Of a DNA stretch of 57,180 bases, positions 2,701 through 38,830 are shown piece after piece. Position 1 is the stretch's first letter. Each line of letters begins with the position of its first letter. The notes below the pieces were generated by a model, which did not search any database, was not told where the DNA came from, and saw nothing but the letters and a program-made list of their open reading frames with translations. Location of the stretch: the NCBI GenBank assembly GCA_030833315.1, contig JAURHM010000013.1, forward strand, positions 1-57,180, read 5' to 3'. A program made the position numbers and the translations under genes. Source of the stretch: Burkholderiales bacterium (GTDB lineage Bacteria > Pseudomonadota > Gammaproteobacteria > Burkholderiales > SG8-41).

Positions 2701-3831
2701 TTAGCGGGGCTTGGCCGGCGTGCGGGTATCATCTGAGGGCATCAGGTGTATCCCGTCGGCCAGCAGGGACAGGCCAATCTCCACACCCATGGCAATGCCG
2801 TTACGTCTTGCGACATGCGCCGGAACCGTCAGAAACAACGGTGGCCGATCGGGTCCGTTGACCGCCACCGTCAGGGCCACATTTTCTCCCAGCGGCAAAC
2901 ATTCTATGACCGGCCCGGATACCGGATTTTCACGTTCGCCGCGTGAAGGCCGGTCTCGCCGGTGCAGCATGATGTGGCCTTGCGGGATCACCCAAGTGAT
3001 CTGTGTGCCGGGCTTGAAAGCCGTTTGCAGGCGCGCTTCCAGCCGATGCCCCCGCCATTCAATGATCGTCAACGCACGCGCCTCGTCATGACCGACAACA
3101 CCGGCACGGAACACGTTGCGCAAGCCAACCAGTTGCGCGACCTCCACGGTATCGGGCCGGGTCATCACTGCATACGGTTCGCCGGACTGCAGCGTACGGC
3201 CCTGATGCAGCACACACAACTGATCGGCAAGCATCAGCGCTTCATCAAGATCGTGCGTGACCAGAATGACCGGCATCGCCAGATCGCGGCGCAGCTCGGC
3301 CAATTCACGATAAAGGCGTTGCCGTGTCGCACGATCCACCGCAGAGAACGGCTCATCCAGCAGCAGCACCTGCGGCTCCCGTGCCAGCGCCCTCGCCACA
3401 GCAACCCGCTGCTGCTGACCGCCGGAAAGTGCCGCAGGAACCCTGCTCTCAAGACCTGCAAGCCGGACACGCGCCAGCACATCGCGCGCACGCTGCTCCC
3501 GCTCGGCCACCGGCCGGTCCAGCATGGCCTCCATCACATTATGCAGGGCGCTGAGGTGCGGAAACAACGCATAGTTCTGGAAAACATAACCGACACGACG
3601 TTGCCGGGTTTCGTGATAAACACCGCGACCCGAATCAAACCAGCTCTCACCGGCGCAGCGGATTTCCCCCTCTGCCACGCGCAGCAGTCCGGCGATTGCC
3701 CGCAATATGGTGGTTTTTCCACTGCCAGAGGGCCCCACCAGCGCCAGCACCTGTCCCGGCGCGCATTTCAGCCTTGCATCCAGCGGAATCGGACCACGCT
3801 GTTTCAGGCGGAGTTGAATGCCTTCAGCCAT
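2701..3831 (-). CDS. modC: Molybdate ABC transporter ATP-binding protein ModC
   Basis: The start at 3831 (MAEGIQLRL) lies within the last codons of modB, an eight-base overlap, and gives 376 residues. The N-terminal two thirds is an ABC ATPase: Walker A GPSGSGKTT at residues 34-42, Q-loop QNYALFPHLSA, signature LSGGQQQR, Walker B VLLLDEPFSAVD, H-loop VTHD. The C-terminal third, from about residue 235, is the TOBE/Mop-type regulatory region of ModC; it ends with a segment VTVP-like LFLTVPAHVARRNG. It energises ModB for molybdate uptake. Some C-terminal ModC domains bind oxyanion and slow transport, but this is not readable here. An upstream in-frame ATG at 3855 would add eight residues and lies deeper inside modB. 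Confidence 0.93.
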   Translation of the reverse strand: MAEGIQLRLKQRGPIPLDARLKCAPGQVLALVGPSGSGKTTILRAIAGLLRVAEGEIRCAGESWFDSGRGVYHETRQRRVGYVFQNYALFPHLSALHNVMEAMLDRPVAEREQRARDVLARVRLAGLESRVPAALSGGQQQRVAVARALAREPQVLLLDEPFSAVDRATRQRLYRELAELRRDLAMPVILVTHDLDEALMLADQLCVLHQGRTLQSGEPYAVMTRPDTVEVAQLVGLRNVFRAGVVGHDEARALTIIEWRGHRLEARLQTAFKPGTQITWVIPQGHIMLHRRDRPSRGERENPVSGPVIECLPLGENVALTVAVNGPDRPPLFLTVPAHVARRNGIAMGVEIGLSLLADGIHLMPSDDTRTPAKPR

Positions 3832-4495
3832 AACGCCGTATCCGCGAACGGGCATGGGTGAAATAGGCTGCGCCGATCGCCACCAGGGAAATCAGCAGCA
3901 AAGCCGCCGACATGACACCCGCCCCTGCCGTGTCAAAGGCCTGCACGCGGTCATAAATCGCGATCGCCACAGTCTTGGTTTCACCGGGAATGCTTCCACC
4001 CACCATCAGCACCACACCGAATTCGCCCAGGGTGTGCGCAAAGGTCAGCACTACGGCGGACAGGACGCCGGGCCACGCCAAAGGCAATTCAATCCGCCAC
4101 AAGGTACGCCAACGCGACAGGCCACAACACGCCGCGGCATCTCTCACCTCCGGCGCAATCGCATCAAAACCGCGCTGCATCGGCTGTATAGCAAACGGGA
4201 TATTGAAAATCACCGAAGCCAGCAGCAGCCCTTCAAAGCTGAACACCAGCGGCTGACCGAAAACGGATTCGTAAAACTGGCCAACGGGCGATGCCCCGCC
4301 CATGGCCACCAGCAGGTAATAACCAAGCACCGTGGGCGGAAGCACCAGCGGTAGCGCCAGCATGGCCTCAACCCATGCCTTGCCACGAAATTGATGTGCA
4401 GCCAATCCATGGCCGGCCCAGATTCCCAAAGGCAGCAGAATGAGTACCGTTAACCCGGCGAGTTTCAGCGATAGCGATAGTGCGGACCAGTCCAT
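3824..4495 (-). CDS. modB: Molybdate ABC transporter permease ModB
   Basis: A 223-residue inner-membrane permease with about five hydrophobic segments, beginning LSLSLKLAGLTVLILLPLGIWAG. The EAA-like coupling loop is near the centre: IAPEVRDAAACCGLSRWRTLWRIELPLAWPG. The phrases LALPLVLPPTVLGYYLL and AHTLGEFGVVLMVGGSIPGETKT are typical of ModB. It forms the homodimeric channel for molybdate delivered by ModA. It starts three bases after the modA stop and overlaps modC by eight bases, so the three products are probably made in step. Confidence 0.95.
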   Translation of the reverse strand: MDWSALSLSLKLAGLTVLILLPLGIWAGHGLAAHQFRGKAWVEAMLALPLVLPPTVLGYYLLVAMGGASPVGQFYESVFGQPLVFSFEGLLLASVIFNIPFAIQPMQRGFDAIAPEVRDAAACCGLSRWRTLWRIELPLAWPGVLSAVVLTFAHTLGEFGVVLMVGGSIPGETKTVAIAIYDRVQAFDTAGAGVMSAALLLISLVAIGAAYFTHARSRIRRYG

Positions 4496-4498
4496 GTT

Positions 4499-5278
4499 CT
4501 ATTTTGCCGTTTCAGACGGCAGCACGAAGCCGTAGTGCGCGAGTATTTTCCGCGCGGCTGGCTGCTGCAGGTACGCATAAAAAAGCCGCGCAGTTTCACC
4601 CGCCCCTTTCACCAGCGCCATGCGTTGACGCAAAGGCGCATGCAAATCCTCTGGCAGCAACACATACCGGCCCTGCTGCGCGATTCCGGGCGCCAATGCG
4701 AGCGAGTAGGCAAAAATGCCGCCCTGCGTCGAACCGCTGGCAGCAAACTGCGCAGCCTGCGATACGTTCTCACCCAGGACCAATTTGCCCTGCAACGCAT
4801 CCCACAATGCTGACTTGCGCAAAGCCTGTTCAGCCGCACGACCATAAGGAGCATGCTCGGGATTGGCGATGGCAAAACGGCGAATCGCAGTGCCATCGAC
4901 GGCCTGTTTCAAACCGCTCATTCGCGCATCGACGGCAAGCGGAGAATTTGTCGGTGCAAACAGTACTATCCGGCCGGTGGCATACAAAATACCACGATCT
5001 TCGGTACGACCGCTGTCATGCAGTTTGAATATAAAATTTTCGTCGGCCGACAGGAATAACTGGAACGGCGCGCCTTGTTCGATCTGACGGAAATAATTTC
5101 CGGAGGAACCAAACGACAAACGCAGTTCGCGCTTGTTATCTGCACGGAATCGTGCAGCAATGTCCTCCAGTGCAAATTTTAAATCGGAGGCAGCGGCAAT
5201 GGCGGGAGCCTCTCCTTGCGCACGCGCTCCACAGGACAATAAAAATACCAAAAAAAACAAGTATTTATAAAATATCAT
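4499..5278 (-). CDS. modA: Periplasmic molybdate-binding protein ModA
   Basis: The start at 5278 (MIFYKYLFFLVFLLSC) overlaps the stop of the upstream ATPase gene by four bases and begins a signal peptide ending near GARAQG. The 259-residue product follows the ModA pattern: AIAAASDLKFALEDIAARF at the mature N-terminus, SFGSSGNYFRQIEQGAPFQLFLSAD with the oxyanion-binding serines, then RRFAIANPEHAPYGRAAEQAL. It captures molybdate or tungstate for ModBC. Because it is coupled both to a FecCD-type importer upstream and to modBC downstream, it might serve two translocators. That is inference from gene order only. Confidence 0.93.
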   Translation of the reverse strand: MIFYKYLFFLVFLLSCGARAQGEAPAIAAASDLKFALEDIAARFRADNKRELRLSFGSSGNYFRQIEQGAPFQLFLSADENFIFKLHDSGRTEDRGILYATGRIVLFAPTNSPLAVDARMSGLKQAVDGTAIRRFAIANPEHAPYGRAAEQALRKSALWDALQGKLVLGENVSQAAQFAASGSTQGGIFAYSLALAPGIAQQGRYVLLPEDLHAPLRQRMALVKGAGETARLFYAYLQQPAARKILAHYGFVLPSETAK

Positions 5279-6060
5279 GCCTGCATCCCCATTGGCAGGC
5301 AAACACGCCGCCTCCCCTGCCCCAGTGCCACCTCGGTCACCAGCACTTCAACTCCATACAAGTGTTGCAGTTGTGCGGAGGTCATCACGGTATCCGGCGT
5401 ACCGCAGGCCAGCAAATTACCGTTGCGCAACATCGCCACCCGGTCCGCACAAAGAAAAGCGTGATCCGGGTCGTGTGTCGACAGCAGCACACCGATACCG
5501 TCCGCTGCCAGCGCACGGATGCGTTCCAGCACGCGCACCTGGTTGCCGAAATCCAGATTGGCGGTCGGTTCATCCATTACCACCATGCGCGCCTCCTGCG
5601 CCAAAGCCCGGGCTATCAGCACCAGCTGTCGTTCACCTCCGGAGATCTGCGTGTAGATGGCCTCTGCCAGATACGCGATACCCATGCGGCGAATGGCATC
5701 GAGAGCGACATCATGGTCGCGCGCCGACGGCGCGGCAAACAGGCCCGTGTGAGCCGTCCGCCCCATCAGTACGACATCGCGCACGCTATACGGGAAAAAT
5801 GCGCCATGGGCTTGCGGCACATAACTGACCAACCGCGCAATTTCGTCGCGCTCCAGCTGCTGCAACTCGCAGTCATTAAGCATCACTTTGCCGCACTGAA
5901 TCGGCAACAGGCCCAGCAAGGTCTTGAAAAGGGTGGTTTTGCCGCTGCCATTGGGTCCCAGCAGACACAACACCTCGCCCGCATTGAGCGTAAAACTCAC
6001 ATCGCTGCCGATGCGGCGACCGGGATAACCGTAAGCCAGTTGCTGCGCTTCCAGCTTCAT
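5275..6060 (-). CDS. ABC transporter ATPase of the FecE/MolC type
   Basis: The start at 6060 (MKLEAQQLAYGYPG) overlaps the permease stop by four bases. The 261-residue ATPase has Walker A GPNGSGKTT near residue 35, Q-loop PQAHGAFFPYSVRDVVLMGR, signature ISGGERQ, Walker B MVVMDEPTANLD and switch His STHD. The VLMGRTAHTGLFAAPS segment is characteristic of ATPases paired with FecCD-fold permeases (iron-siderophore, B12, and MolBC molybdate importers). It sits between such a permease and modA. No siderophore receptor, TonB-dependent gene or class III binding protein is nearby, so a molybdate/tungstate role like that of MolC is the best contextual guess. Confidence 0.85.
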   Translation of the reverse strand: MKLEAQQLAYGYPGRRIGSDVSFTLNAGEVLCLLGPNGSGKTTLFKTLLGLLPIQCGKVMLNDCELQQLERDEIARLVSYVPQAHGAFFPYSVRDVVLMGRTAHTGLFAAPSARDHDVALDAIRRMGIAYLAEAIYTQISGGERQLVLIARALAQEARMVVMDEPTANLDFGNQVRVLERIRALAADGIGVLLSTHDPDHAFLCADRVAMLRNGNLLACGTPDTVMTSAQLQHLYGVEVLVTEVALGQGRRRVCLPMGMQA

Positions 6061-7082
6061 TGCCAACCCTTTCTCGCAGCCGCGAGCTGCCACAGGAACA
6101 GCGGTGTGCCAACAAAGGCCGTCAGCACACCCAGAGGTACTTCAATACTGGCAATGCTGCGCGCCAGAGTATCGACCGCCACCAGGAATCCCGCGCCGAG
6201 CAGCACTGACACTGGCAGCAGTCTGGAAAAATCCGGTCCGGTCATCAGCCGCGCAAAATGCGGAATCACCAACCCGATCCAGCCGATGACGCCAGATACG
6301 GCAACCGCCGCTGAAGTCATCAAGGTCGCCGCCACAATCACCACCAGCCGGATACGCCCTACCGACACGCCCAGAGCACGCGCCTCCTCGTCATCCAGCG
6401 ACAATACATTGATGCGCCAGCGCAGCAGCCACAACGGCAGCAAACCGGCTAACAGCAGCGGCGCAGCTACCCACATATTGCGGGTATCGGTCGATGCCAG
6501 ACTGCCGAGCAGCCAGTAGGTAATTGCCGGCAACTGGTTATAGGGATCAGCCAGATATTTCATCAAGGCCACGCAAGCCCCAAGTAGCGCCCCCAAGACC
6601 ACACCGGCAAGGACCAGGAGCAGCAAAGGATCATGGCCACGCACTGCGCGCGCCACCAGATAAACCATAGCGACTGCCGCGAGACCACCGGCAAACGCCA
6701 TCGACTGAATCGCTACCACCCCCAGCGACATGAAAATGCCGAGGATGGCACCGACGGCAGCGCCTGCGGATACGCCAAGGATGTCCGGTGAGACCAGCGG
6801 GTTACGAAACAGGTTCTGATAGGCCGCACCGGCCGCAGCAAGCGCCGCACCGACCAGCACCGCGGCAATCACGCGCGGACCGCGGATTTGCAGCACCACC
6901 GTTTCCAACGTGGCATCCAGGCCATGCGGGGCGCCACCGATCCACGACCAGAGTATGCGAAAAAGGTCTGACAACGGGACCGGATAACGGCCGATCGCAA
7001 ATGCAACAACAACGATGACGCACAGGATCATCGTGGCAGCCGCAATAATCAGCGGATAGCGATTTGCAGGATTTTCAGTCAC
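6057..7082 (-). CDS. FecCD-family ABC permease (MolB/BtuC type)
   Basis: A 341-residue integral membrane protein with about ten hydrophobic segments. Family landmarks are IRGPRVIAAVLVGAALAAAGAAYQNLFRNPLVSPDILGVSAGA in the first third, a WLLGSL block in the middle, and SGVIGWIGLVIPHFARLMTG with PLGVLTAFVGTPLFLWQL at the end. These permeases form dimeric type II importers for siderophores, cobalamin, heme or, in MolBC, molybdate. The start is GTG at 7082; a weak GGGAAG lies about 14 bases upstream. The gene follows tupA by 94 bases and is translationally coupled to its ATPase, which is coupled to modA. The substrate is not provable from the sequence. Confidence 0.85.
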   Translation of the reverse strand: MTENPANRYPLIIAAATMILCVIVVVAFAIGRYPVPLSDLFRILWSWIGGAPHGLDATLETVVLQIRGPRVIAAVLVGAALAAAGAAYQNLFRNPLVSPDILGVSAGAAVGAILGIFMSLGVVAIQSMAFAGGLAAVAMVYLVARAVRGHDPLLLLVLAGVVLGALLGACVALMKYLADPYNQLPAITYWLLGSLASTDTRNMWVAAPLLLAGLLPLWLLRWRINVLSLDDEEARALGVSVGRIRLVVIVAATLMTSAAVAVSGVIGWIGLVIPHFARLMTGPDFSRLLPVSVLLGAGFLVAVDTLARSIASIEVPLGVLTAFVGTPLFLWQLAAARKGWQ

Positions 7083-7176
7083 AAAAAATGCGGCTTCCCG
7101 GTTAAACGAGATCCAGAGGATACCGCACTACGCGATTGATCCGGGCCGGCATCAGCAGCACCCAGATCCATTGATG

Positions 7177-8010
7177 TCAGCGCTTGGCGTTCGGAAAAAA
7201 CAGCTGATCCGGACCGATCTTGTAGGCGGCAATCGTCAACTGCCCTTCCGGCGAAATCATCCAATCCACGAAGGCCTGACCGAGTTCTTTCTTCACATGC
7301 GGATGTTTTGCCGGATTGACCAGCATCACACCGTATTGATTAAACAGCTTCTTGTCGCCCTCGACCTCGATCACCAGATCGCCGCGGTTCTTGAACGACA
7401 GCCAGGTGCCACGATCAGTGAAGGCGTAGGCATTCATCGCCGAAGCGGTATTCAGCGTCGGCCCCATGCCTGAGCCGGTTTCACGGTACCAGCTGCCTTT
7501 TCCCGTATTGGGATCAATGCCGGCGTCTTTCCACAAGCGCAGTTCCGCGGCGTGCGTACCGCTCCTGTCGCCACGCGAAGCAAAGGGCGCACCGCCCGCG
7601 GCAATCTTCTTGTAAGCATCGACAATGTCCTTGCTGCCGGCAATTCTGGCCGGATCGTTTTTTGGACCGACGAGAACAAAGTCGTTGTACATGACGTCAA
7701 AGCGCTGCACGCCAAAACCCTCGGCGAGTAATTTCTCTTCGGCCGGTTTGTCATGCACAAAAACCACATCGGCATCACCGCGGCGCGCCATGTCCAGTGC
7801 CTGCCCGGTGCCCAGCGCGACAACACGCACCTGGGTACCGGTTTTTTTCTCGAATACAGGCAGCAGGTGCTTGAACAGACCCGACTGCTCCGTCGATGTC
7901 GTCGAAGCCACCGTAATGAAATTCTTCTGTGCGGCCGCCGTTCCCTGCAGACCAAGCAGGGCAAAAGCGGCAATTGCTGCAGCAATGACATTCCTCCGGC
8001 TTAATGCCAT
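7177..8010 (-). CDS. tupA: Periplasmic tungstate-binding protein TupA
   Basis: A 277-residue secreted receptor. The signal peptide (SRRNVIAAAIAAFALLGLQG) has a twin Arg but reads as an ordinary Sec or possibly Tat leader, cleaved near TAAAQ. The mature protein opens with ITVASTTSTEQSGL; this TTTS-type motif is the TupA signature that contacts tungstate. Other conserved pieces are DVVFVHDKPAEEKLLAEG, MYNDFVLVGP and FASRGDRSGTHAAELRLW. TupA binds tungstate with very high selectivity over molybdate. The start codon lies inside the tupC tail (ten-base overlap), so the operon order is B-C-A rather than A-B-C. Confidence 0.92.
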   Translation of the reverse strand: MALSRRNVIAAAIAAFALLGLQGTAAAQKNFITVASTTSTEQSGLFKHLLPVFEKKTGTQVRVVALGTGQALDMARRGDADVVFVHDKPAEEKLLAEGFGVQRFDVMYNDFVLVGPKNDPARIAGSKDIVDAYKKIAAGGAPFASRGDRSGTHAAELRLWKDAGIDPNTGKGSWYRETGSGMGPTLNTASAMNAYAFTDRGTWLSFKNRGDLVIEVEGDKKLFNQYGVMLVNPAKHPHVKKELGQAFVDWMISPEGQLTIAAYKIGPDQLFFPNAKR

Positions 8011-8711
8011 GGCAGTTCCCCTTTGATGAAGGCTGCTGCTTCCGACGAAACGGGTTCCTTGAAAAAACGGTCAATGGGTGTGTGCTCCATCAACCGGCCG
8101 TTGCTGATGAAAAGGATCTCGTCGCCCAGGCGGCGGGCCTGACCAAGGTTATGGGTGGTCATGATGATTTTCGTGCCCGAGGCATGGATGGCCTGGATGA
8201 TGCGTTCAATGTCCTGCGTCGAAGCCGGATCGAGATTGGCCGTCGGCTCGTCCAGGAACAGGACATCCGGTCCCAGCGCCCAGGCCCGCGCCAGCGCCAG
8301 TCGCTGCTGCTCGCCGCCGGAGAGCACACGCGCAGGCCGGCCAGCCTGATGCTCCAATCCGACCACTTCCAGCACATCCATCGCGCGCAATGTGCTTTCA
8401 CGCCGCGATTTACCTGCGAGCTGCAAGCCGTAAACAACGTTAGCCAATGCCGAACGCCGCAGCATGACCGGGCGCTGGAACACCATAGCCTGACGCCGGC
8501 GAACATCCCTGTTCCGTGCCCCTTGCCAGGCGATATGTCCGGCAGTCGGCTCCAGCAGACCGTGGCAAAGCCGCATCAGCACACTTTTTCCCGCACCGTT
8601 GGGGCCAAGAATGATCGTACGCGGCCCCGCTTCAATTTTGGCGGAAATGCAGTTGATGATCGTCGTAGCACCAACACTGAACGTCAACTGATCAAGTGCA
8701 AGCGGCAGCAT
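8001..8711 (-). CDS. tupC: Tungstate ABC transporter ATP-binding protein TupC
   Basis: I place the start at 8711 (MLPLALDQLTFSVG), one base after the tupB stop; a longer frame to 8741 would overlap tupB. The 236-residue ATPase has Walker A GPNGAGKS, Q-loop QRPVMLRRSALANV, signature LSGGEQQR, Walker B VLFLDEPTANLD and switch His TTHN. It lacks a TOBE extension, as is usual for TupC. It powers TupB with TupA as receptor. Its last ten bases overlap the tupA start. Confidence 0.92.
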   Translation of the reverse strand: MLPLALDQLTFSVGATTIINCISAKIEAGPRTIILGPNGAGKSVLMRLCHGLLEPTAGHIAWQGARNRDVRRRQAMVFQRPVMLRRSALANVVYGLQLAGKSRRESTLRAMDVLEVVGLEHQAGRPARVLSGGEQQRLALARAWALGPDVLFLDEPTANLDPASTQDIERIIQAIHASGTKIIMTTHNLGQARRLGDEILFISNGRLMEHTPIDRFFKEPVSSEAAAFIKGELPWH

Positions 8712-8712
8712 C

Positions 8713-9417
8713 TCAGCCGTACCTCCGCTGCGCAACTTCACGGATCAGCGCCGCCAGTGCATTCAAGACAATGACCAGCATGATCAGCACGATACCCAAT
8801 CCCAACGCCAGCGGCAGATCACCTTTGCTGGTTTCCAGTGCAATGGTAGTGGTCATCACCCGTGTCACACCATCGATGTTGCCGCCGACAATCATCACCG
8901 CCCCCACTTCGGCGGCAGCGCGGCCGAAACCGGCCAGCAGGATGGTCAGCAGGGAAAACCGCGTATCCCAGATCAGGGTCCATGCCGCGCGCAAACGCCT
9001 TGCACCCAGCGAACGCAGCTGTTCGGAATATTCACGCCACGCGTCCTCGATGGTTTGGCGCGACAGCGCTGCAATGATCGGCACGATCAGCACGGTCTGC
9101 GCAATGACCATGGCCTCCGGGGTAAACAGGATGCCGAGGCTGCCCAGCGGTCCCGCCCGCGACAGCAGCAGATAGATAAGCAGCCCCACAACCACCGGCG
9201 GCAAGCCCATCAGGGCATTGAGCAGCACGATCAGCAGTTGCCGGCCGGGAAAACGTTCGACGGCAATGGCAGCGCCCAGAGGCAATCCGATCAATGTCGC
9301 AGCCACTGCCGCGCTCAGGCTGACCTGCAAGCTGAGAAGGACGATGCGCGCCAGCCCGGGATCCAAACCGGTCACCAGCACCCATGCCGCCCCGAAAGCT
9401 TCACCCAAACCAGTCAT
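8713..9417 (-). CDS. tupB: Tungstate ABC transporter permease TupB
   Basis: A 234-residue permease with about five to six membrane segments. Recognisable parts are LPLGAAIAVERFPGRQLLIVLLNALMGLPPVVVGLLIYLLLSRAGPLG, the EAA-like loop EQLRSLGARRLRAAW, and AGFGRAAAEVGAVMIVGGNIDGVTRVMTT, which closely follows TupB. It is first in the tupBCA unit and lies 78 bases from a divergent ModE-like regulator, a common arrangement for tungstate transport operons. Confidence 0.92.
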   Translation of the reverse strand: MTGLGEAFGAAWVLVTGLDPGLARIVLLSLQVSLSAAVAATLIGLPLGAAIAVERFPGRQLLIVLLNALMGLPPVVVGLLIYLLLSRAGPLGSLGILFTPEAMVIAQTVLIVPIIAALSRQTIEDAWREYSEQLRSLGARRLRAAWTLIWDTRFSLLTILLAGFGRAAAEVGAVMIVGGNIDGVTRVMTTTIALETSKGDLPLALGLGIVLIMLVIVLNALAALIREVAQRRYG

Positions 9418-9495
9418 GCAATTCTTAACCTAATAGAAAGATAGACGATGATCATAGATAATGGCCAAACCCTTAATATGTAATATCTTGCAAGT
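9418..9495. promoter_or_regulatory. Divergent tupB / ModE-like regulator control region
   Basis: These 78 AT-rich bases separate tupB (minus) from the ModE-like regulator (plus), and both promoters must lie at least partly here. Visible elements are an eight-base palindrome ATGATCAT at 9448-9455, flanked by GATAGA (9440-9445) and AGATAA (9456-9461), and two AATAT repeats near 9475-9487. I see no clean -35/-10 pair and no good match to the Escherichia coli ModE box, so the operator is unassigned. Confidence 0.4.
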
Positions 9496-10557
9496 ATGAA
9501 AATCACTGCTCAAATCCGCTGGACCCTGGATTCGGTCGAAATCGAGCCCCGGCTGGTCACTTTGCTGGAATCCATCGCCAGGAATGGCAATCTGCAGGAC
9601 GCCGCCCAAAGCGCAGGCCTGTCCTATCGCCATGCCTGGGGGCTTCTGGAAGCGGCAAGCACCGAGTTGGGCGACCAGTTGGTCAACCGCCAGCAGGGAC
9701 GCGGCACCCAACTGGCGCCCTTGGGCACCAAATTGTTGGAGGGCATGGTTGACGTCAATGGCTCCCTGGCCGCCGGGCTGCGGGAGGGCGAGGCTCGAAT
9801 GGCCGCCCATATTGCCCAGGCACCGCCGTCAGTCAGTAATCCGGCCCGGGTCACCCTGTTTGCGAGTCACGATCTGGCGCTGACACAAATGCGCGAAATC
9901 ATCTCCAAACGGAACGATCTGAAGCTGTCTTTGCAGTTTCATGGCAGCCTGGACTGCCTTTCAGCGATGCGCCGTAACCAATGCGAACTGGCCGGCTTTC
10001 ATCTGCCATCCATCCCCGGAACCCGCACCCTCGCCGCCCAACTCATCCCATTCCTAAGCCTCAAAGGCTGGAAGGCCACCCGCCTGTTCGACCGCACTCA
10101 AGGTCTGATGGTCAAACCGGGCAATCCCAAAAAGCTGGTGCGTCTGGCCGACCTGTCCCAAAAAGGCGTCCGTTTCGTCAATCGCCAACCCGGTTCCGGT
10201 ACCCGCCTGTGCCTGGATTTCCTGCTGGCACAACAGGGTGTATCACCGGCGAATGTCCATGGTTATGCCCATGAGGAATTCACCCATGCTGCAGTAGCAG
10301 CCACAGTCGCCAGTGGCATGGCCGATGTCGCCTTCGGTATCGAAGCCGCCGCCAAGGAACAGGGCCTCGATTTTGTGCCCGTGGTCAACGAACACTATTA
10401 CCTGGCAGCCCGTGCATCGGTGCTGCCACGACCAGGAGTTCGAGCCCTGCTCGAATTCCTCGACAGTCGCGAATTCCGGCGGCTGGTCAACAACCTGCCG
10501 GGTTACCGTTCCGTCGGCAAACTCGACTGGGTCAATGCCATGGACATCATCCAATAG
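9496..10557 (+). CDS. ModE-type HTH regulator fused to a periplasmic-binding-like sensor domain
   Basis: A 353-residue one-component regulator. Residues 1-100 form a ModE/LysR-type winged helix: the AAQSAGLSYRHAWGLLEAAS helix-turn-helix and the RQQGRGTQLAPLGTKLLE wing. From about residue 115 the protein is a PBP-like domain (VTLFASHDLALTQMREII, LDCLSAMRRNQCELAGFHLP, RFVNRQPGSGTRLCLDFLL, ASGMADVAFGIEAAAKEQGLDFVPV), resembling the TupA/ModA fold but without a signal peptide, so it is cytoplasmic. It probably senses molybdate, tungstate or a cofactor intermediate and controls the divergent tup/mod genes. It lacks the MOP (Mop/TOBE) domains of classical ModE. Confidence 0.85.
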   Translation: MKITAQIRWTLDSVEIEPRLVTLLESIARNGNLQDAAQSAGLSYRHAWGLLEAASTELGDQLVNRQQGRGTQLAPLGTKLLEGMVDVNGSLAAGLREGEARMAAHIAQAPPSVSNPARVTLFASHDLALTQMREIISKRNDLKLSLQFHGSLDCLSAMRRNQCELAGFHLPSIPGTRTLAAQLIPFLSLKGWKATRLFDRTQGLMVKPGNPKKLVRLADLSQKGVRFVNRQPGSGTRLCLDFLLAQQGVSPANVHGYAHEEFTHAAVAATVASGMADVAFGIEAAAKEQGLDFVPVVNEHYYLAARASVLPRPGVRALLEFLDSREFRRLVNNLPGYRSVGKLDWVNAMDIIQ

Positions 10558-17716: not shown

Positions 17717-20638
17717 TTATGCCTTGGCAACCTGGCAAATCGTGGTCTTGGTTTCCTGCATCATGGTCACGATGTCGTAACCATAAGTCGTCGCCGTATT
17801 GACCGCTTCGCCACGCACCACCGGGGCAGCCCCGTCCGGATAGTATTTCTTCATGTCCTCGCCTTCCCACCAGCCGGCAAAGTGGAAGGGCAGGAACACC
17901 GTGCCGGCGGCAACGCGCTCGGTTACCAGCGTTTTCACCTTGATCCGCGGTTTGCTCGGCGCCGGGGTCGTGACCCAGACGTATTCGTTGTTGCGCACAC
18001 CACGATCGTTGGCATCCTTCGGATTGATCTCAACGAACATTTCCTGTTGCAACTCGGCGAGCCAGGGATTCGACCGTGTCTCGTCACCGCCACCCTCGTA
18101 CTCCGTCAGACGGCCGCTGGTCATGATCAGCGGGAACTGTTTGCCAGCATCCTTGTTGGCGTCCTGCACCGTCTTGAACAGCACTGGCAGTCTCCAGCGG
18201 TTTTTCTGGTCGGCGTGCGTCGGGTATTTCTCGATCAGGTCCGGACGCGGGCTGTAGAGCGCCTCGCGGTGCAGCGGTACCGGATCCGGGAAGTTCCACA
18301 CCACCGCGCGCGCCTTGGCATTACCGAAGGGATGGCAGCCGTGCTTCATGCATACCCGCTGGATGCCGCCCGAGAGGTCGGTCTTCCAGTTCTTGCCCTC
18401 AGCGAGCTTCTTCTCGTCCTCGGTCAGGTCATCCCACCAGCCCAGTTTCTTCAACAGCACATGGTCGAATTCGGGGTAGCCAGTGGTCAGCTCGGCACCC
18501 TTGGAATGTGAGCCGTCCTCAGCTAGAAGATTGACGCCGTCCTTCTCCACGCCAAAATTCGCCCGGAAATTGCCGCCACCGTCCATGACATGCCGATCTG
18601 TCTGATACAGATTCGGTGAACCTGGGTGCTTGATCGCAGCAGTGCCGAAACACGGCCACGGCAGGCCGAAATAATCGCCGTCGAGAACATAACCGGTTTT
18701 CGCGTCCTTACCACCCTTGGCGCGCAGCGTTTTAACGTCGAACACATGCATATTGCGCATATGCGCCTGCAGACGCTCTGGCGACTGCCCGGTGTAACCG
18801 ATGGTCCATACTCCGCGGTTGATCTCGCGAAGCGTATCTTCCATGTCCGGCTCGTCCATACCGCCCTTGCCCTTCACCACTTTGATCTTTGCGGTGAGTT
18901 CCTTGGCATAGCCGAATTTCTGCGCCAGCTGATACATGATCATGTGATCAGTGCGAGATTCGAACATCGGCTCAATGACCTTCTCGCGCCACTGAATCGA
19001 ACGATTCGAAGCCGTGCACGAACCCGAACACTCCAACTGGGTTGCTGCCGGCAGCAGGTAAACGCCGTCCTTGCGCGCCATCGCCGCCATCGCCGCACTG
19101 GCCGACGGATACGGATCAACCACCACCAGCAGTTCGAGCTTTTTCATCGCTTCGATCATTTCCTTGCCGCGGTTCTGGCTGTTCGGCGCGTGCCCCCAGT
19201 ACACCACCGCTTTCAGGTTTGAATCCTGGTCGATCAGCTCATTCTTTTCGAGCACCGCATCAATCCATCGCGATACAGTGATACCCGGCTTGGTCATCAT
19301 GCCCGGCGCGAACTGTTTCTTGATCCACTCGAAGTCGACGCCCCAGACGCTGGCGAAGTGCTTCCACGAGCCCTCGGCGATGCCGTAGTAGCCCGGCAAC
19401 GAATCCGGATTCGGACCGACGTCGGTCGCGCCCTGCACGTTGTCATGGCCGCGGTAGATGTTGGTACCACCGCCGGAAACACCGACGTTGCCCAGCGCCA
19501 GCTGCAGCAAGCAAGAGGCGCGGACGACCGCATTGCCGTTGGTGTGCTGGGTCTGCCCCATTGCCCAGACGATGGTGCTGGGCTTGTTCTTGGCCATTTT
19601 CTCAGCCACGTCGCGGACTTCGGCCTCCTTCATGCCGGTGACCCGCTCCACCTCCTCCGGCGTCCACTTGGCGGCCTCTTCCTTCACCTTGTCCATGCCG
19701 TAGACACGGGCCTTGATGTATTCCTTGTCTTCCCAGCCGTTCTTGAAGATGTGATGCAGCATGCCCATCAGGAACGCAACGTCGGTTCCCGAACGGATGC
19801 GGTAAAAGGTATCGGCTTTGGCGGCCGTGCGCGTGAAGCGCGGATCAACGACGATGACTTTGGCACCGTTCTCCTTCGCATGCAGCGTGTGCAACATCGA
19901 CACCGGGTGCGCCTCCGCCGCGTTCGATCCGAAGAACAGAATGCACTTGGAATTCTGTTCGTCGTTGTAGGAGTTGGTCATCGCACCATAGCCCCAGGTA
20001 TTGGCGACGCCGGCGACCGTGGTCGAGTGGCAGATCCGCGCCTGATGGTCCATGTTGTTGGTGCCGAAGAACGACACAAACTTGCGGAACAGGTAAGCCT
20101 GTTCGTTGTTGTGCTTGGAAGAACCAATCCAGAAGGTCGCGTCCGGGCCCGATTCCTTGCGGATTTTCATCAGTTTTTCGCTGACTTCATTCAAAGCCAC
20201 ATCCCAGGAAATCTTTTCCCACTTGCCGTCCTTCAACTTCATCGGCGTGCGCAGGCGATGTGAAATCTCGTGCATGCCGTGCTCGCGGATCGAAGCACCT
20301 TTTGCGCAGTGCGCGCCAAGGTTGATCGGCGAATCAAACACCGGCTCCTGGCGGATCCACACGCCGTTCTGAACCACCGCGTCGATGGCGCAGCCGACCG
20401 AGCAATGGGTGCAGACCGTGCGTTTGACCTGGATGTCACTGGCCGGCTTATCGGCGGCCTGCGCCTTGCGCATCACCGGGAACGGCAGCTGCGAAAGCGC
20501 CACGGCGCCGCCGGTAGCAAGGCCGCTGCGTTTGAGGAATGTGCGACGATCTATCGTGTTGCCGATGAAGGCCGACGCACTGCGCGTCAGACGGCTTTGC
20601 GAGGTCGCGGTTTTGGTGGATTTCCGGGTGAGTAACAT
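17717..20638 (-). CDS. fdhA: Formate dehydrogenase catalytic (alpha) subunit, Mo/W-bis-MGD, Cys type
   Basis: The start at 20638 (MLLTRKSTKT), with GAGGAG upstream, gives 973 residues. A Tat signal carries DRRTFLKRSG (twin Arg at 31-32). A proximal [4Fe-4S] cluster is bound by Cys76, Cys79, Cys83 and Cys111. The metal ligand is Cys203, next to the essential His204 in ARICHSTTVAG; the codon is TGC, so this enzyme is not a selenoprotein. GGTNIYRGHDNVQGATDVG and TSGRLTEYEGGGDETRSNPW are typical of membrane-bound respiratory formate dehydrogenases. It oxidises formate to CO2 in the periplasm and feeds the beta and gamma subunits. TorD-like and small Tat genes precede it. Both Mo and W uptake systems in this window could serve it. 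Confidence 0.95.
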   Translation of the reverse strand: MLLTRKSTKTATSQSRLTRSASAFIGNTIDRRTFLKRSGLATGGAVALSQLPFPVMRKAQAADKPASDIQVKRTVCTHCSVGCAIDAVVQNGVWIRQEPVFDSPINLGAHCAKGASIREHGMHEISHRLRTPMKLKDGKWEKISWDVALNEVSEKLMKIRKESGPDATFWIGSSKHNNEQAYLFRKFVSFFGTNNMDHQARICHSTTVAGVANTWGYGAMTNSYNDEQNSKCILFFGSNAAEAHPVSMLHTLHAKENGAKVIVVDPRFTRTAAKADTFYRIRSGTDVAFLMGMLHHIFKNGWEDKEYIKARVYGMDKVKEEAAKWTPEEVERVTGMKEAEVRDVAEKMAKNKPSTIVWAMGQTQHTNGNAVVRASCLLQLALGNVGVSGGGTNIYRGHDNVQGATDVGPNPDSLPGYYGIAEGSWKHFASVWGVDFEWIKKQFAPGMMTKPGITVSRWIDAVLEKNELIDQDSNLKAVVYWGHAPNSQNRGKEMIEAMKKLELLVVVDPYPSASAAMAAMARKDGVYLLPAATQLECSGSCTASNRSIQWREKVIEPMFESRTDHMIMYQLAQKFGYAKELTAKIKVVKGKGGMDEPDMEDTLREINRGVWTIGYTGQSPERLQAHMRNMHVFDVKTLRAKGGKDAKTGYVLDGDYFGLPWPCFGTAAIKHPGSPNLYQTDRHVMDGGGNFRANFGVEKDGVNLLAEDGSHSKGAELTTGYPEFDHVLLKKLGWWDDLTEDEKKLAEGKNWKTDLSGGIQRVCMKHGCHPFGNAKARAVVWNFPDPVPLHREALYSPRPDLIEKYPTHADQKNRWRLPVLFKTVQDANKDAGKQFPLIMTSGRLTEYEGGGDETRSNPWLAELQQEMFVEINPKDANDRGVRNNEYVWVTTPAPSKPRIKVKTLVTERVAAGTVFLPFHFAGWWEGEDMKKYYPDGAAPVVRGEAVNTATTYGYDIVTMMQETKTTICQVAKA

Positions 20639-20648
20639 GGTGTGCTCC

Positions 20649-20840
20649 TCAGACCTTGGTGGTTTCGTAATAACGGCGAACGTGCTCGGAGAGCTGGTAA
20701 CCCTGCCCTTGCCGGGCCGCCTTCTTGGCTTCAGCCTTGTGCTCTTCACTGCCCTTGTTCGCAACAACGGCTGCGGCGGCAGCAACACCACCGGCTCCTA
20801 CTGCTGCAAAAAACTTCCTGCGGCTCATTTTGTCTTTCAT
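20649..20840 (-). CDS. Formate dehydrogenase region Tat-target small protein
   Basis: A 63-residue protein from ATG 20840, preceded by AAGGAGA. Almost the first half is a Tat signal (MSRRKFFAAVGAGGVAAAAAVVANKG); the remainder (YQLSEHVRRYYETTKV) is a short conserved tail. It matches the short Tat-target proteins repeatedly found beside FDH alpha genes. How it helps is not known; co-export or chaperoning of the alpha subunit has been suggested by context only. It ends ten bases before the fdhA start. Confidence 0.82.
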   Translation of the reverse strand: MKDKMSRRKFFAAVGAGGVAAAAAVVANKGSEEHKAEAKKAARQGQGYQLSEHVRRYYETTKV

Positions 20841-34468: not shown

Positions 34469-35530
34469 TTATTGGCTGACTTTCACCCCGGGCGAACCGG
34501 CTTCCAGCCGTCCGATCACCGCCGCCTGCGCGAAGCCTTTGGCGCGGAAGATGTCGAGAACCGCAGTCGCTGCTTCCGGCGCACAGGCCACCAGAAGGCC
34601 GCCGCTGGTCTGCGGGTCGGTCATCAGCTTGCGTAGATTGACGCTGTCACCTTCCGGCAACTGCACCAGTTTGTCGTAACTCGCCCAGTTGCGATCCGAA
34701 GCGCCGGTGACAAAGCCAGCTTCGACCAGCGGCTGGGCCAGCGACAGCACCGGCACTTTGGACCACTCCACTTGCGCCACCAATTTGCTGCCTTTGCAGA
34801 TTTCCAGCAGATGACCCAGCAGTCCGAAACCGGTGACGTCGGTCAGCGCATGCACGGCATCCATGGCACCCAGTTCAATGCCAGGCGTGTTGAGCTTGGT
34901 CGCGCTCTCCAGCATCTGCCCGTAGGCGACGTCGCTCAACTGCCCTTTTTTCATCGCGGCGCTCATGATGCCGACGCCGAGGCCCTTGCCGAGGATCAGC
35001 ACATCACCGGCTTTGGCGCGGTCGTTGCGCTTCACGCGGTCCGGATGCACCAGCCCCAGCGCGACCAGCCCGTAAATCGGTTCCGGAGCATCAATCGAGT
35101 GGCCACCGGCAATCGGAATGCCGGCTTCAGCACACACCGCATGACCGCCGGCGATGATGCGTTGCACGGATTCCATTGGCAGTTTGCCGATCGGATAGCC
35201 GAGCAGCGCAAGTGCCATGAAGGGCTTGCCGCCCATGGCATACACATCGGAGATCGCGTTGGTTGCGGCAATACGGCCGAAATCAAAGGGATCATCAACG
35301 ATAGGCATAAAAAAATCCGTCGTCGCGATGATCGCCTGCGTATCGTTGATGCGGTACACCGCGGCGTCATCACTCGACTCCGTGCCCACCAGCAAATCCT
35401 TGAACGGAAGTGCCGCTGGCGTTTTAGCCAGAACTTCGCTCAGCAACGCCGGCGTCAGTTTGCAGCCTCATCCACCGCCGTGGGAAAACTGCGTCAAGCG
35501 GAGGGAGTCTTCTGTTTTGGGTTCACTCAT
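34469..35530 (-). CDS. selD: Selenophosphate synthetase SelD, selenocysteine-containing
   Basis: Read from ATG 35530 (MSEPKTEDSLRLTQFSHGGG) with an in-frame TGA at 35470-35468 as selenocysteine 21, the protein is 353 residues and fits SelD fully. The TGA is followed by GCKLTPALLSEVL, so the active-site motif is HGGG-U-GCK, exactly where other SelDs have Cys or Sec. Downstream come SSDDAAVYRI, ATTDFFMPIVDDPFDFGRIAATNAISDVYAMGG, LTDVTGFGLLGHLLE and LMTDPQTSGGLL. It makes selenophosphate from selenide and ATP for tRNA selenation and Sec. A stop-to-stop reading would begin at a TTG (35446) and lack the active site. mnmC and mnmH follow in the opposite direction; selA, selB and selC must be elsewhere. 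Confidence 0.93.
35438..35467 (-). other. Candidate bacterial SECIS hairpin in selD
   Basis: Directly 3' of the Sec TGA, the mRNA can pair GCU-GCAA (35466-35460) with UUGC (35446-35443) and AGC (35440-35438), with a UG bulge and an apical loop of 13 bases containing a self-complementary ACGCCGGCGU. This is the position of a bacterial SECIS. The fold was found by eye only; alternative pairings exist. Confidence 0.45.
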
Positions 35531-35727: not shown

Positions 35728-37659
35728 GTGACACTGACACCGGCACGCATCACGCGTCGTGAAGACGGGACGCCCTTTGCGCCCGACTACGATGATGTGT
35801 ATCACAGCAGCGACGGCGGCCCAGCGCAGGCGCGAGAAGTGTTTCTTGCCGGGAACCAGCTGCCCGCACGCTGGGCCGGACGCGCGGTGTTCACTGTGTT
35901 CGAAACCGGTTTCGGCCTGGGCCTCAATTTCCTGGTGACGCTGAACACCTGGCGCAACGATACCTCGCACTGCGAGCGGCTGCACTACATCGCGATTGAA
36001 AAACATCCGCTGACCCGCACCGACCTCGCCACCTGTCATGCGGCATGGCCGGAACTGGCGGAGGAAGCCGCTGCACAGCAGGCGCAATGGCCGCTGCCGC
36101 TGCCCGGTCATCACCGGCTGCACTTCTTTGGCGGCGCGGTGACGCTGACCCTGGTCTTCGGTGACATCGCTGATGTCTGGCCGCAACTCGATATGCCCTT
36201 CGACGCCTGTTATCTCGACGGCTTCGCGCCGGCGCGCAATCCCGACATGTGGCAGCCCGCGCTGCTGCGCCAATGCGGCCGCCTCGCCGCGCCCGGCGCA
36301 ACGCTGGCCACCTACACCACTGCCGCGGCGGTGCGCCATGCACTGACTGCCGCCGGATTCAATGTGCAGCGCCTGCCCGGCTATGGCCGCAAACGCCACC
36401 GGCTGACGGCAGTATTCAATCCGCCGGCCTGGCAGTCAGCGCATGCCATACCGGTAACGCCGAAAACCGATGCACGCCAAGCTCTGATCATCGGCGCCGG
36501 ACTGGCCGGGGCTGCAGTCGCCGAACGCCTCGCCTCGCGCGGCTGGCAGATCACCGTCATCGACGCACTGCCGGCCGCCGCCGGTGGTGCCTCGGGCATC
36601 CGTGCCGGCCTGCTGCACCCGCATCTGTCGCCGGATGATGCCCTGCTGTCACGCCTGATCCGTCACGGTTTCCTGTATGCACTGGCCACATGGAAGCGCC
36701 TCAGCGACGCCGGCCATCCCTTAAGCGGTCGTTGTGACGGTATGGCCCATGTCGCGCAGAATCAGCTTAACGAGGCCGGGATGGCCTCGACCGCAGCCCG
36801 GCTGGGTCTGCCCGGGGAATACGCCCAATTCATGGATCGCAGCGCCTTGAGTGCCTCCTGCGGCTTATCGCTGACTGCGGGTGGCTATTGGTATCCGCAG
36901 GCGGGTTGGATGGCGCCGGCGACGCTGATCGAAGCACTGCTGAAACAGTCCGGAGCAAATCGGCTTTTTAATTGCCGTGTTGATCGACTGGAACAACATG
37001 CCGGGCAATGGCAGGCCATCAACGCCGACGGCGCCGTCATTGCACAGGCAGCGGTCGCGATTCTCGCAAACAGCCATGATGCCGCGCGGCTTTCACCCTT
37101 CGCGTATCCGCTGCAGCGCGTGCGCGGCCAGCTGACTTATTTGCCGGGTTCCGCACTGCCCGGATTGCGCCATGCGGTCGCCGGCCCGGCTTATGCCGTA
37201 AAGACCGCGGACGATATGCTGGTCATCGGCAGTACTTACAGCGAAGAGGACGAATCCTCACAAGTTTCGGCAGCAGATCACGCTGCGAATCTGGCGATGA
37301 TGGGCAAGCTTTTTCCTGACCATCAAAACATCGTTACAGCACCCCTTTCAGGATTCACCGGATTCCGCGCCGCCACGGCCGACCATCTGCCGTTGATCGG
37401 CGCACTGCCTGATCTGGACGCCATACGTTCGCTTGGCCTGGAACTGGCCGGGCAGGCCGTCGACAACATGCCGCGCCGCCCCGGTATTTATGGCGCCCTT
37501 GGTTATGGCTCGCGCGGCCTGCTGTGGGCGGCGATGGGTGGAGAACTCCTTGCCAGCCTGATTCACGGTGAACCGCTGCCGGTGGAAGCACCGCTCGCCG
37601 CGGCCATGGACCCGGCGCGCGGCGCCCTGCGCCGTATGCGCCAGGGTGAGCTGCCCTGA
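35728..37659 (+). CDS. mnmC: Bifunctional tRNA mnm5s2U biosynthesis protein MnmC
   Basis: A 643-residue two-domain enzyme acting on the wobble uridine of tRNAs for Lys, Glu and Gln. The N-terminal methyltransferase domain shows DYDDVYHSSDGG, FETGFGLGLNFLVTL (SAM loop) and CYLDGFAPARNPDMW. The C-terminal FAD domain begins about residue 245 with ALIIGAGLAGAAVAERLASRGWQITVID and later GFRAATADHLPLIG. The C-terminal oxidase makes nm5U from cmnm5U; the N-terminal domain methylates it. The start is GTG at 35728; a stop-free ATG is not available near the family start. Its neighbours selD and mnmH act on the same wobble position. Confidence 0.94.
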   Translation: MTLTPARITRREDGTPFAPDYDDVYHSSDGGPAQAREVFLAGNQLPARWAGRAVFTVFETGFGLGLNFLVTLNTWRNDTSHCERLHYIAIEKHPLTRTDLATCHAAWPELAEEAAAQQAQWPLPLPGHHRLHFFGGAVTLTLVFGDIADVWPQLDMPFDACYLDGFAPARNPDMWQPALLRQCGRLAAPGATLATYTTAAAVRHALTAAGFNVQRLPGYGRKRHRLTAVFNPPAWQSAHAIPVTPKTDARQALIIGAGLAGAAVAERLASRGWQITVIDALPAAAGGASGIRAGLLHPHLSPDDALLSRLIRHGFLYALATWKRLSDAGHPLSGRCDGMAHVAQNQLNEAGMASTAARLGLPGEYAQFMDRSALSASCGLSLTAGGYWYPQAGWMAPATLIEALLKQSGANRLFNCRVDRLEQHAGQWQAINADGAVIAQAAVAILANSHDAARLSPFAYPLQRVRGQLTYLPGSALPGLRHAVAGPAYAVKTADDMLVIGSTYSEEDESSQVSAADHAANLAMMGKLFPDHQNIVTAPLSGFTGFRAATADHLPLIGALPDLDAIRSLGLELAGQAVDNMPRRPGIYGALGYGSRGLLWAAMGGELLASLIHGEPLPVEAPLAAAMDPARGALRRMRQGELP

Positions 37660-37735: not shown

Positions 37736-38830
37736 ATGGCCTCCGCCTCCTCTGATTCCCGCATCGCCACTGTCAGCAGCCTTGATGAGCTCGACGCTTT
37801 CAGCGACATCATCGACGTGCGCTCGGAAAGCGAGTTTGCCGAGGATCACATGCCGGGCGCGATCAATTGTCCGGTGCTGAACGATCAGGAACGCATCGAA
37901 GTCGGCACCCTGTATAAACAGGTCTCCCCCTTCGATGCCAAAAAACTCGGCGCCTCTCTGGTCGCCACCAACGCTGCACGGCATCTGCGTGAACGATTTA
38001 TCAAGCACCAGCGCGACTGGCGTCCTTTGGTGTATTGCTGGCGCGGCGGCGAACGCAGCAATGCGCTGGCGCATATCCTCAGCCGCGTCGGCTGGCGCAC
38101 CAGCCGTTTTGAGGGCGGCTACAAGGCTTACCGCCACGCCGTCATCGAGGAACTGAAAATACTGCCGGCACGTTTTGACTGGCGCGTGGTCTGCGGCATG
38201 ACCGGCACCGGCAAAAGCCAACTGCTGCGCGCGTTGAAGGAACAGGGCGCGCAGGTGCTGGATCTGGAAAAACTCGCAGCACATCGCGGCTCGGTATTGG
38301 GCAATTTACCCGACGCGCCGCAACCCGCGCAGAAAATGTTCGAGAGCCGCATCTGGCACGCCTTGAAGAATCTGTCGCCGGACCGCCCGGTCTATGTCGA
38401 GTCGGAAAGCCGCAAGATCGGCAAGCTTCGCGTGCCGCCGGAACTGATCGATGCGATGTGGCAAAGCGCCTGCGTCGTCATCGAAGCGCCGATCCCCGTG
38501 CGCGTCGCGCTGCTGATGGATGAATACCGGCATTTCCTCACCGATACAGCCCTGCTCAATGGCCAGCTCGACTGCCTGCGCGCCCTGCATGGCGGTGAAG
38601 TCATCAACCTCTGGCAGAACATGGCGCGCGACAGCCGCTGGCCCGAGCTGACTGAAGAGCTGCTGGTCAAACACTATGACCCGGCTTACACCCGCGCCAT
38701 CGTCGACCATTACCCGCGTCTGCCGCAGGCGAAACGCTTCAAGCTGAAGACCTATAGCGGCGACGCCATCGACCGGCTGGCCGCGGAGATGCTGCTCCAG
38801 GCTGCCGGCGACGTGCAGACCGCCGCTTGA
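37736..38830 (+). CDS. mnmH: tRNA 2-selenouridine synthase MnmH (SelU/YbbB)
   Basis: A 364-residue protein that swaps sulfur for selenium at the 2-position of wobble uridine using selenophosphate. The N-terminal rhodanese domain has DVRSESEFAEDHMPGAINCPVL and the catalytic Cys in LVYCWRGGERSNALA. A P-loop follows (GMTGTGKSQ near residue 158), with the characteristic FEGGYKAYR segment between. YVESESRKIGKLRVPPEL and LMDEYRHFL are conserved. A TACAAT at 37691-37696 may be a -10. It uses SelD's product and shares its tRNA substrates with MnmC. Confidence 0.95.
   Translation: MASASSDSRIATVSSLDELDAFSDIIDVRSESEFAEDHMPGAINCPVLNDQERIEVGTLYKQVSPFDAKKLGASLVATNAARHLRERFIKHQRDWRPLVYCWRGGERSNALAHILSRVGWRTSRFEGGYKAYRHAVIEELKILPARFDWRVVCGMTGTGKSQLLRALKEQGAQVLDLEKLAAHRGSVLGNLPDAPQPAQKMFESRIWHALKNLSPDRPVYVESESRKIGKLRVPPELIDAMWQSACVVIEAPIPVRVALLMDEYRHFLTDTALLNGQLDCLRALHGGEVINLWQNMARDSRWPELTEELLVKHYDPAYTRAIVDHYPRLPQAKRFKLKTYSGDAIDRLAAEMLLQAAGDVQTAA

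Follow-up and report, generated by a model that had tools for sequence, protein, structure and literature searches.

Bacterial selenophosphate synthetases with selenocysteine (Sec) at the active site are already well known: Sec-SelD stands second among the selenoproteins listed in PMC5029168 (Table 3; 394 proteins from 383 organisms), and SelD was described as the single selenoprotein of several species by Zhang et al. (2006, PMC1794560). In that study, as far as its text was available to us, Betaproteobacteria were credited with one selenoprotein family (10 proteins), and neither FdhA nor SelD was reported to have changed from Cys to Sec. Bacteria having at least six selenoprotein genes were termed selenoprotein-rich in PMC5029168, where they belonged mostly to Deltaproteobacteria, Clostridia or Synergistetes. 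SelD, peroxiredoxin (Prx), Prx-like, Trx-like and AhpD-like proteins are known selenoprotein families (PMC1794560, PMC1088965). The bacterial SECIS element was modelled as a hairpin with a loop of 3–9 nt bearing G in the first two positions, an upper stem of 4–16 bp, a UGA-to-loop distance of 16–37 nt and a minimum free energy of −7.5 kcal/mol or lower (PMC13188914, Fig. 2 legend).

Here we analysed a stretch of 57,180 nucleotides (hereafter the window) from a genome assembly of 3.10 Mb in 105 contigs (98.1% complete), and found a selD gene interrupted by an in-frame TGA, which is very probably a Sec codon. The gene adds one more member to the known Sec-SelDs and does not in itself differ from them. 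Its features are as follows.

34469..35530, minus strand: selD, selenide water dikinase (selenophosphate synthetase), 353 residues with Sec assigned to residue 21, TAA included
35468..35470, minus strand: in-frame TGA, read here as the Sec codon, on the active-site Cys column of other SelDs
35444..35446, minus strand: TTG start of the 325-aa SelD of a plain ORF call, overlapping the loop of the SECIS-like hairpin
35437..35454, minus strand: SECIS-like hairpin, CGCCGGC GUU GCUG A GCG, located by folding and a fixed-position test

The reading frame starts with ATG at 35530-35528, passes TGA at 35470-35468 (codon 21) within the SelD motif HGGG-U-GCKLTP, and runs to the next in-frame stop, TAA at 34471-34469. 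The initial annotation, made from the sequence alone, had taken ATG 35530 through the TGA to 34469 as one SelD with the TGA at the catalytic Cys/Sec position, and both points were borne out. The read-through protein scored 420.6 bits against NCBIfam TIGR00476 (cut-off 125) and 521.7 bits against NF002098 (cut-off 299), above the curated equivalog cut-offs of both models, and its best solved match was PDB 3u0o (E = 1.3e-100, residues 6-341), in which the Cys of HGAGCGCK in the glycine-rich N-terminal segment aligns with residue 21. We take 3u0o to be the E. coli protein and this Cys to be essential.

As the same annotation had pointed out, a plain ORF call starts 28 codons past the ATG, at TTG 35446, and loses the active site. 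One may therefore ask if the TGA is a true stop and the 325-aa SelD from this TTG the working protein. Such a product is what a mechanical ORF call yields, and it still exceeds the TIGR00476 cut-off at 386.5 bits, 34 lower than the read-through protein, but the conserved HGGGxGCK segment would be lost. Continuity of the open frame by itself was rejected as evidence for read-through, since 31 TGAs in the window are flanked by 20 or more open codons on the 5′ side and 250 or more on the 3′ side. The selD TGA stands above this chance level because of homology on both sides of it, namely the gain in profile score, the Cys column of 3u0o and its recurrence in 37 of 61 genomes.

These 61 genomes, the window's own and 60 relatives, comprised 37 of the same family and 24 at the order level. 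SelD with an in-frame TGA was present in 35/37 same-family and 2/24 order-level genomes, and the TGA was read in DNA for all 37 (30 + 8 loci, one genome, G020, having two copies). The same-family exceptions were G003, which had no SelD row, and G015, in which only SelD residues 150-351 (the C-terminal half) were found. In thirteen order-level genomes the SelD, with 52% identity or more, had no stop (that of G047 covers residues 9-262), and in the 10 of these that were fetched the codon was TGC (8) or TGT (2). The remaining nine order-level genomes were left uncounted, three having distant matches (34–38% identity, no stop) and six weaker or no match. In a named genome collection, among the best 80 of at least 590 relatives, the codon was TGA in 6, TGC in 70 and TGT in 4. 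The two sets overlap: L089 and L026 have identical SelD proteins, as do L095 and L049. Since L026 comes from a genome of the same genus (G010) and L089 from Betaproteobacteria bacterium isolate D1_Bin_21, the genus was placed in Betaproteobacteria. Separately, the two TGA-SelD genes of G020 lie at G020:C27:50376-51401 and G020:C9:708-1736, in an assembly with 6% contamination.

In the alignment of SelD homologues around codon 21, a check that the initial annotation had proposed, 43 genes had TGA and 84 had TGC or TGT at the active-site codon. In relatives the stretch preceding the TGA is likewise conserved at the protein level, and in 25/30 loci the nearest Met lies 20 codons upstream of the TGA, which argues against a true stop. 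The in-frame TGA lies on the Cys column of the homologues with coding homology on either side, as expected of a selenoprotein gene. The recurrence also bears on an artefact: the assembly is split into 105 contigs, so that an erroneous base, or else a nonsense mutation that left a pseudogene, might be suspected. Judged from the sequences of the 35/37 same-family genomes in which the TGA recurs, a sequencing error for TGC or TGT appears very unlikely.

The hairpin downstream of the TGA has 7 bp, one bulged A and a 3-nt loop GUU beginning with G; 20 nt separate the TGA from the loop, and its energy was −7.9 kcal/mol (36 nt from the TGA), so that loop, stem, spacing and energy all agree with the published SECIS model. 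The 66-nt fold around the TGA was unexceptional compared to shuffled sequences (z = −0.76). A permissive version of this model was passed by 43/44 TGA-SelD genes and also by 37/82 Cys-SelD genes, and was therefore rejected as evidence when taken alone. A hairpin at a fixed place, with a 4-bp stem and a G-bearing 3-nt loop, is the stronger test because so many Cys genes pass the permissive one; it was found in 43/44 TGA rows versus 9/82 Cys rows (loci L093 and L118, missed by the motif, were dropped). Covariation in the selD hairpin was weak: 95.7% of its pairs were standard (41 rows, 33 distinct), one pair was changed on both sides, a number that was reached or exceeded in 201/500 shuffles, and the covariation score was reached by 17/500 shuffles.

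Synonymous conservation pointed to the same segment. Of 343 nine-codon windows in the 35 same-family TGA-SelD rows, the six with the highest conservation begin 0 to +5 codons from the TGA, and the mean was 0.85 in the best window compared to 0.54 elsewhere in the gene. For codons 5–13 past the site, the mean was 0.78 in TGA-SelDs (35 rows) versus 0.45 in Cys-SelDs (84 rows; rest of the gene, 0.51). In the Cys-SelDs, only one of 317 nine-codon windows surpasses in codon conservation the window at offset −4, which spans the active site, indicating that the active-site segment itself is codon-conserved and that part of the signal in TGA-SelDs is not due to SECIS. The TTG start sits within the hairpin, where codon conservation is a feature of TGA-SelDs that Cys-SelDs do not share, and with this we consider termination at the TGA followed by initiation at the TTG to be very improbable. 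The constraint past the codon, seen with TGA and not with Cys codons, likewise speaks against an error or a pseudogene, to which, with the TGA in 37/61 genomes, we give still less weight.

If the TGA is a Sec codon, the host must have SelA, SelB and tRNA-Sec, as the initial annotation had stated in naming their absence as a refutation. All three were found in one locus of the genome, as is required of a host of bacterial selenoproteins, with selA (TIGR00474, 571.2 bits, cut-off 267.9) and selB (TIGR00475, 423.3 bits, cut-off 242.3) upstream of the tRNA gene, and with genes for a YaeQ protein and a pyridine-nucleotide disulphide oxidoreductase between selB and the tRNA:

G000:C3:42612-42702: tRNA-Sec, 75.9 bits (Rfam cut-off 47), called by ARAGORN as tRNA-SeC with anticodon tca

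Among the 61 genomes, tRNA-Sec was found in 43 and SelB in 43. The 37 TGA-SelD genomes had tRNA-Sec in 35 cases and SelB in 36, and the 13 Cys-SelD genomes had both in five cases and neither in eight. Two TGA-SelD genomes fell short: G029 (same family, 91% complete) carries a TGA-SelD, yet neither tRNA-Sec nor SelB was found, and in G009 (79% complete) tRNA-Sec was not found; both misses are presumed to be assembly gaps. An order-level genome, G038, gave tRNA-Sec and SelB and no SelD match at E = 0.001, which is either an assembly gap or something unusual. Apparent TGAs inside selB of G048 and G050 were discarded, as they are terminal stops past which the alignment had run.

A reassignment of TGA throughout the genome, for instance to Trp, was also considered, and nothing speaks for it. 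It would sit poorly with a TGA that falls on the Cys column and has a SECIS-like hairpin after it, and with the presence of selA, selB and tRNA-Sec in the genome. Because TGA is the ordinary terminal stop of 28 of the 50 genes listed in the window, it is not reassigned throughout, and we attach a negligible probability to this explanation. That selD is the sole one of these 50 genes with an internal TGA was set aside as evidence, as the gene list had been drawn from stop-free frames.

Other genes of the window bear on what selenophosphate would be used for.

35728..37659, plus strand: mnmC, bifunctional enzyme for the mnm5 side chain of the tRNA wobble uridine (NF002480, 742 bits, cut-off 540)
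37736..38830, plus strand: mnmH/selU, tRNA 2-selenouridine synthase (NF008752, 490 bits, cut-off 266; the scan used a longer start, ATG 37736 being read separately)
17717..20791, minus strand: formate dehydrogenase-like alpha subunit, no internal TGA, Cys in RICHSTTV

The neighbouring mnmC diverges from selD on the opposite strand, and the presence of mnmH/selU, 2.2 kb from selD, indicates that selenophosphate has two uses in this genome. The Cys of RICHSTTV presumably marks the position of Sec in Sec-containing formate dehydrogenases. On one side of the formate dehydrogenase cluster, at 2701-10557 of the window, ORF translations show what we take to be molybdate-/tungstate-type ABC transporter-like genes and a ModE-like regulator. 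Among 16 gaps between 52 hand-listed features, reading through stops by eye in the 10 that are about 150 bases or longer gave no convincing further selenoprotein gene in the window. A formate dehydrogenase-N gene carrying a single in-frame TGA was present in 7 of 16 genomes searched, the window's genome not being among them, and in four of the five Cys-SelD genomes that have tRNA-Sec and SelB. G001, of the same genus, also has a formate dehydrogenase-N with one TGA, so that the Sec status of this enzyme seems variable within the genus.

The Cys form of the window's formate dehydrogenase raised the idea that the Sec codon is real and SelD is the sole selenoprotein, the machinery serving SelD and selenouridine alone, a situation for which Zhang et al. 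(2006) gave examples. Further selenoproteins were searched for in five families only (PF00384, PF00578, PF02627, PF01521 and TIGR01553). In the window's genome, none of the 8 molybdopterin oxidoreductase matches and neither of the 2 HesB-like matches contained a stop, the former agreeing with that idea, but an in-frame TGA was present in 4 of 10 AhpC-TSA matches and in one of 6 CMD/AhpD matches. These correspond to five further TGA-bearing redox genes.

Contig C103 (L179): peroxiredoxin, FTGG-U-TNQ; AhpC-TSA/Redoxin by Pfam
Locus L180 2709-3823, G000:C64:28708-29822, plus strand: TlpA-like protein, SW-U-STC, and adjacent peroxiredoxin, FTDT-U-TSE; AhpC-TSA/Redoxin by Pfam
Contig C10 (L181): Prx-like protein, DW-U-RYC (UxxC); AhpC-TSA/Redoxin by Pfam
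Contig C62 (L182): AhpD-like protein, CSY-U-MAH (CxxU); CMD by Pfam

With these peroxiredoxin and AhpD-like genes in hand, three of the five having a TGA conserved in relatives, the notion of SelD as the only selenoprotein was dropped, and we now regard it as very unlikely. None of the five reached the cut-off of an NCBIfam model when scanned with C for Sec. When the AhpD-like protein is aligned with the debrominase Bmp8, its Sec stands at the second position of Bmp8's CxxC pair. In the Prx-like protein, the Cys of both displayed relatives of solved structure is matched not by Sec but by the Cys three residues past it; these two candidates are known from the window's own genome alone. Including SelD, the TGA was thus conserved in relatives for four of the six candidate selenoprotein genes (SelD, two peroxiredoxins and the TlpA-like protein).

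The peroxiredoxin on C64 had TGA at the aligned place in 29 of 30 fetched loci, its own included, the exception (L211, TGC) being from a genome without Sec machinery; in the genome search for it, each of the first 28 rows contained one TGA. Among the matches listed, a peroxiredoxin row with one TGA was seen in at least 34 of the 37 same-family genomes (not in G024, G029 or G032) as well as in G041 and G048, only some of these rows being confirmed in DNA; G041 and G048 also have a TGA-SelD and Sec machinery. The peroxiredoxin on C103 showed FTGG-U in 19/19 stretches fetched from genomes with machinery. The TlpA-like gene had TGA in 21 loci of relatives, the gene being found beside the peroxiredoxin in relatives too, and a Cys codon in three distant loci (L208-L210) and in another gene of the window's genome (L172). 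A peroxiredoxin match with two TGAs in G049, a genome without Sec machinery, was rejected, as it proved to be an open Cys-type AhpC frame (FVCPSE); a twentieth stretch fetched for the C103 gene, from this same genome, likewise was a Cys AhpC.

Hairpins past the TGA were also evaluated for these genes. Compensatory changes were seen in two of them. The TlpA-like gene had 99.2% of cells paired (21 rows, 19 distinct), and changes on both sides affected 2 pairs and 4 cells; for the C64 peroxiredoxin the values were 96.3% (23 rows, 16 distinct), 3 pairs and 6 cells. For both genes, 0/500 shuffles were as high on cells paired, on cells changed on both sides and on covariation score. Two hairpins agree less closely with the SECIS model. 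In the C64 peroxiredoxin the lowest-energy loop, ACCUUCC, is without an early G; opening the top pair, as was done in the structure used for counting, is needed to supply one. The C103 peroxiredoxin hairpin was weak (−3.5 to −6.7 kcal/mol for segments of 36 to 48 nt beginning at the TGA).

Taken as a Sec codon, UGA at codon 21 of selD would be decoded rather than terminated by release factor 2, with SelB-GTP and Sec-tRNA-Sec positioned by the mRNA hairpin at 35454-35437. Sec21 would then replace the active-site Cys of other SelDs and presumably take over its catalytic role. The protein, as predicted from its sequence, would make selenophosphate, on which SelA could draw to form Sec-tRNA for SelD itself and for the other selenoproteins, and MnmH/SelU to form 2-selenouridine in tRNA. 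A loop would result in which SelD needs Sec and Sec needs SelD. The roles of SelA, SelB and SelU used here are textbook knowledge, as stated in the relevant parts of PMC1794560 and PMC9312934.

The direction of Cys/Sec exchange in SelD was approached with a quickly built tree of 125 rows (43 Sec and 82 Cys) with residue 21 masked. The tree was midpoint-rooted, has several weak backbone branches, and its rows were picked by similarity to the window's SelD. At least 4 changes of the Sec/Cys label were required on it; the main Sec clade comprised 41 Sec rows with 1 Cys row, and the other two Sec rows, L121 and L162, fell singly among Cys-SelDs. In these two the sequence past the TGA is unlike that of the main Sec clade, and they may represent independent Cys-to-Sec changes. 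The tree pattern together with the differing post-TGA sequences tentatively suggests gains of Sec in SelD; an ancestral Sec with many losses is possible if losses are far easier than gains. A broader reading, possible in our view and given somewhat less than even weight, is that the whole betaproteobacterial family evolved a selenoprotein-rich thiol-redox system and, with it, switched its SelD from Cys to Sec. That system would comprise, with the same reserve, two Sec peroxiredoxins and the adjacent Sec TlpA-like protein, joined in the window's genome by the Sec Prx-like and AhpD-like proteins.

The initial annotation was thus right to call a Sec-SelD, and what it did not see is that such SelDs are well known and that the genome holds at least five other TGA-bearing redox genes. 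For annotation, the SelD of a plain ORF call is cut short and lacks the active-site segment, and the corrected frame points to UGA decoding as Sec; the TGA-interrupted redox genes of this genome and its relatives would be broken by a standard gene caller in the same manner. Confirmation would give the Betaproteobacteria a selenoprotein-rich family, along with a densely sampled clade for testing which way Cys and Sec have been exchanged in SelD. Within the accessible parts of the open-licence literature, which included PMC1794560, PMC5029168, PMC9312934, PMC13188914, PMC12013277 and PMC1088965, we found no mention of this betaproteobacterial family among reports of Sec-SelD and, supplementary tables aside, no report of a selenoprotein-rich betaproteobacterium.

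Compared to the bacterial Sec-SelDs described so far, the present one is alike in that Sec replaces the active-site Cys and a SECIS element lies directly past the UGA. It shares family and active-site segment with the Cys-SelD of PDB 3u0o, which has Cys where the present protein has Sec, and Cys-SelD genes in general, unlike TGA-SelDs, are without special conservation at codons 5–13 past the site. With its six candidate genes from known redox selenoprotein families, the genome would resemble the selenoprotein-rich bacteria; those belong mostly to other groups whereas this is a betaproteobacterium, and for that class the set of Sec proteins in its family seems unusually large.
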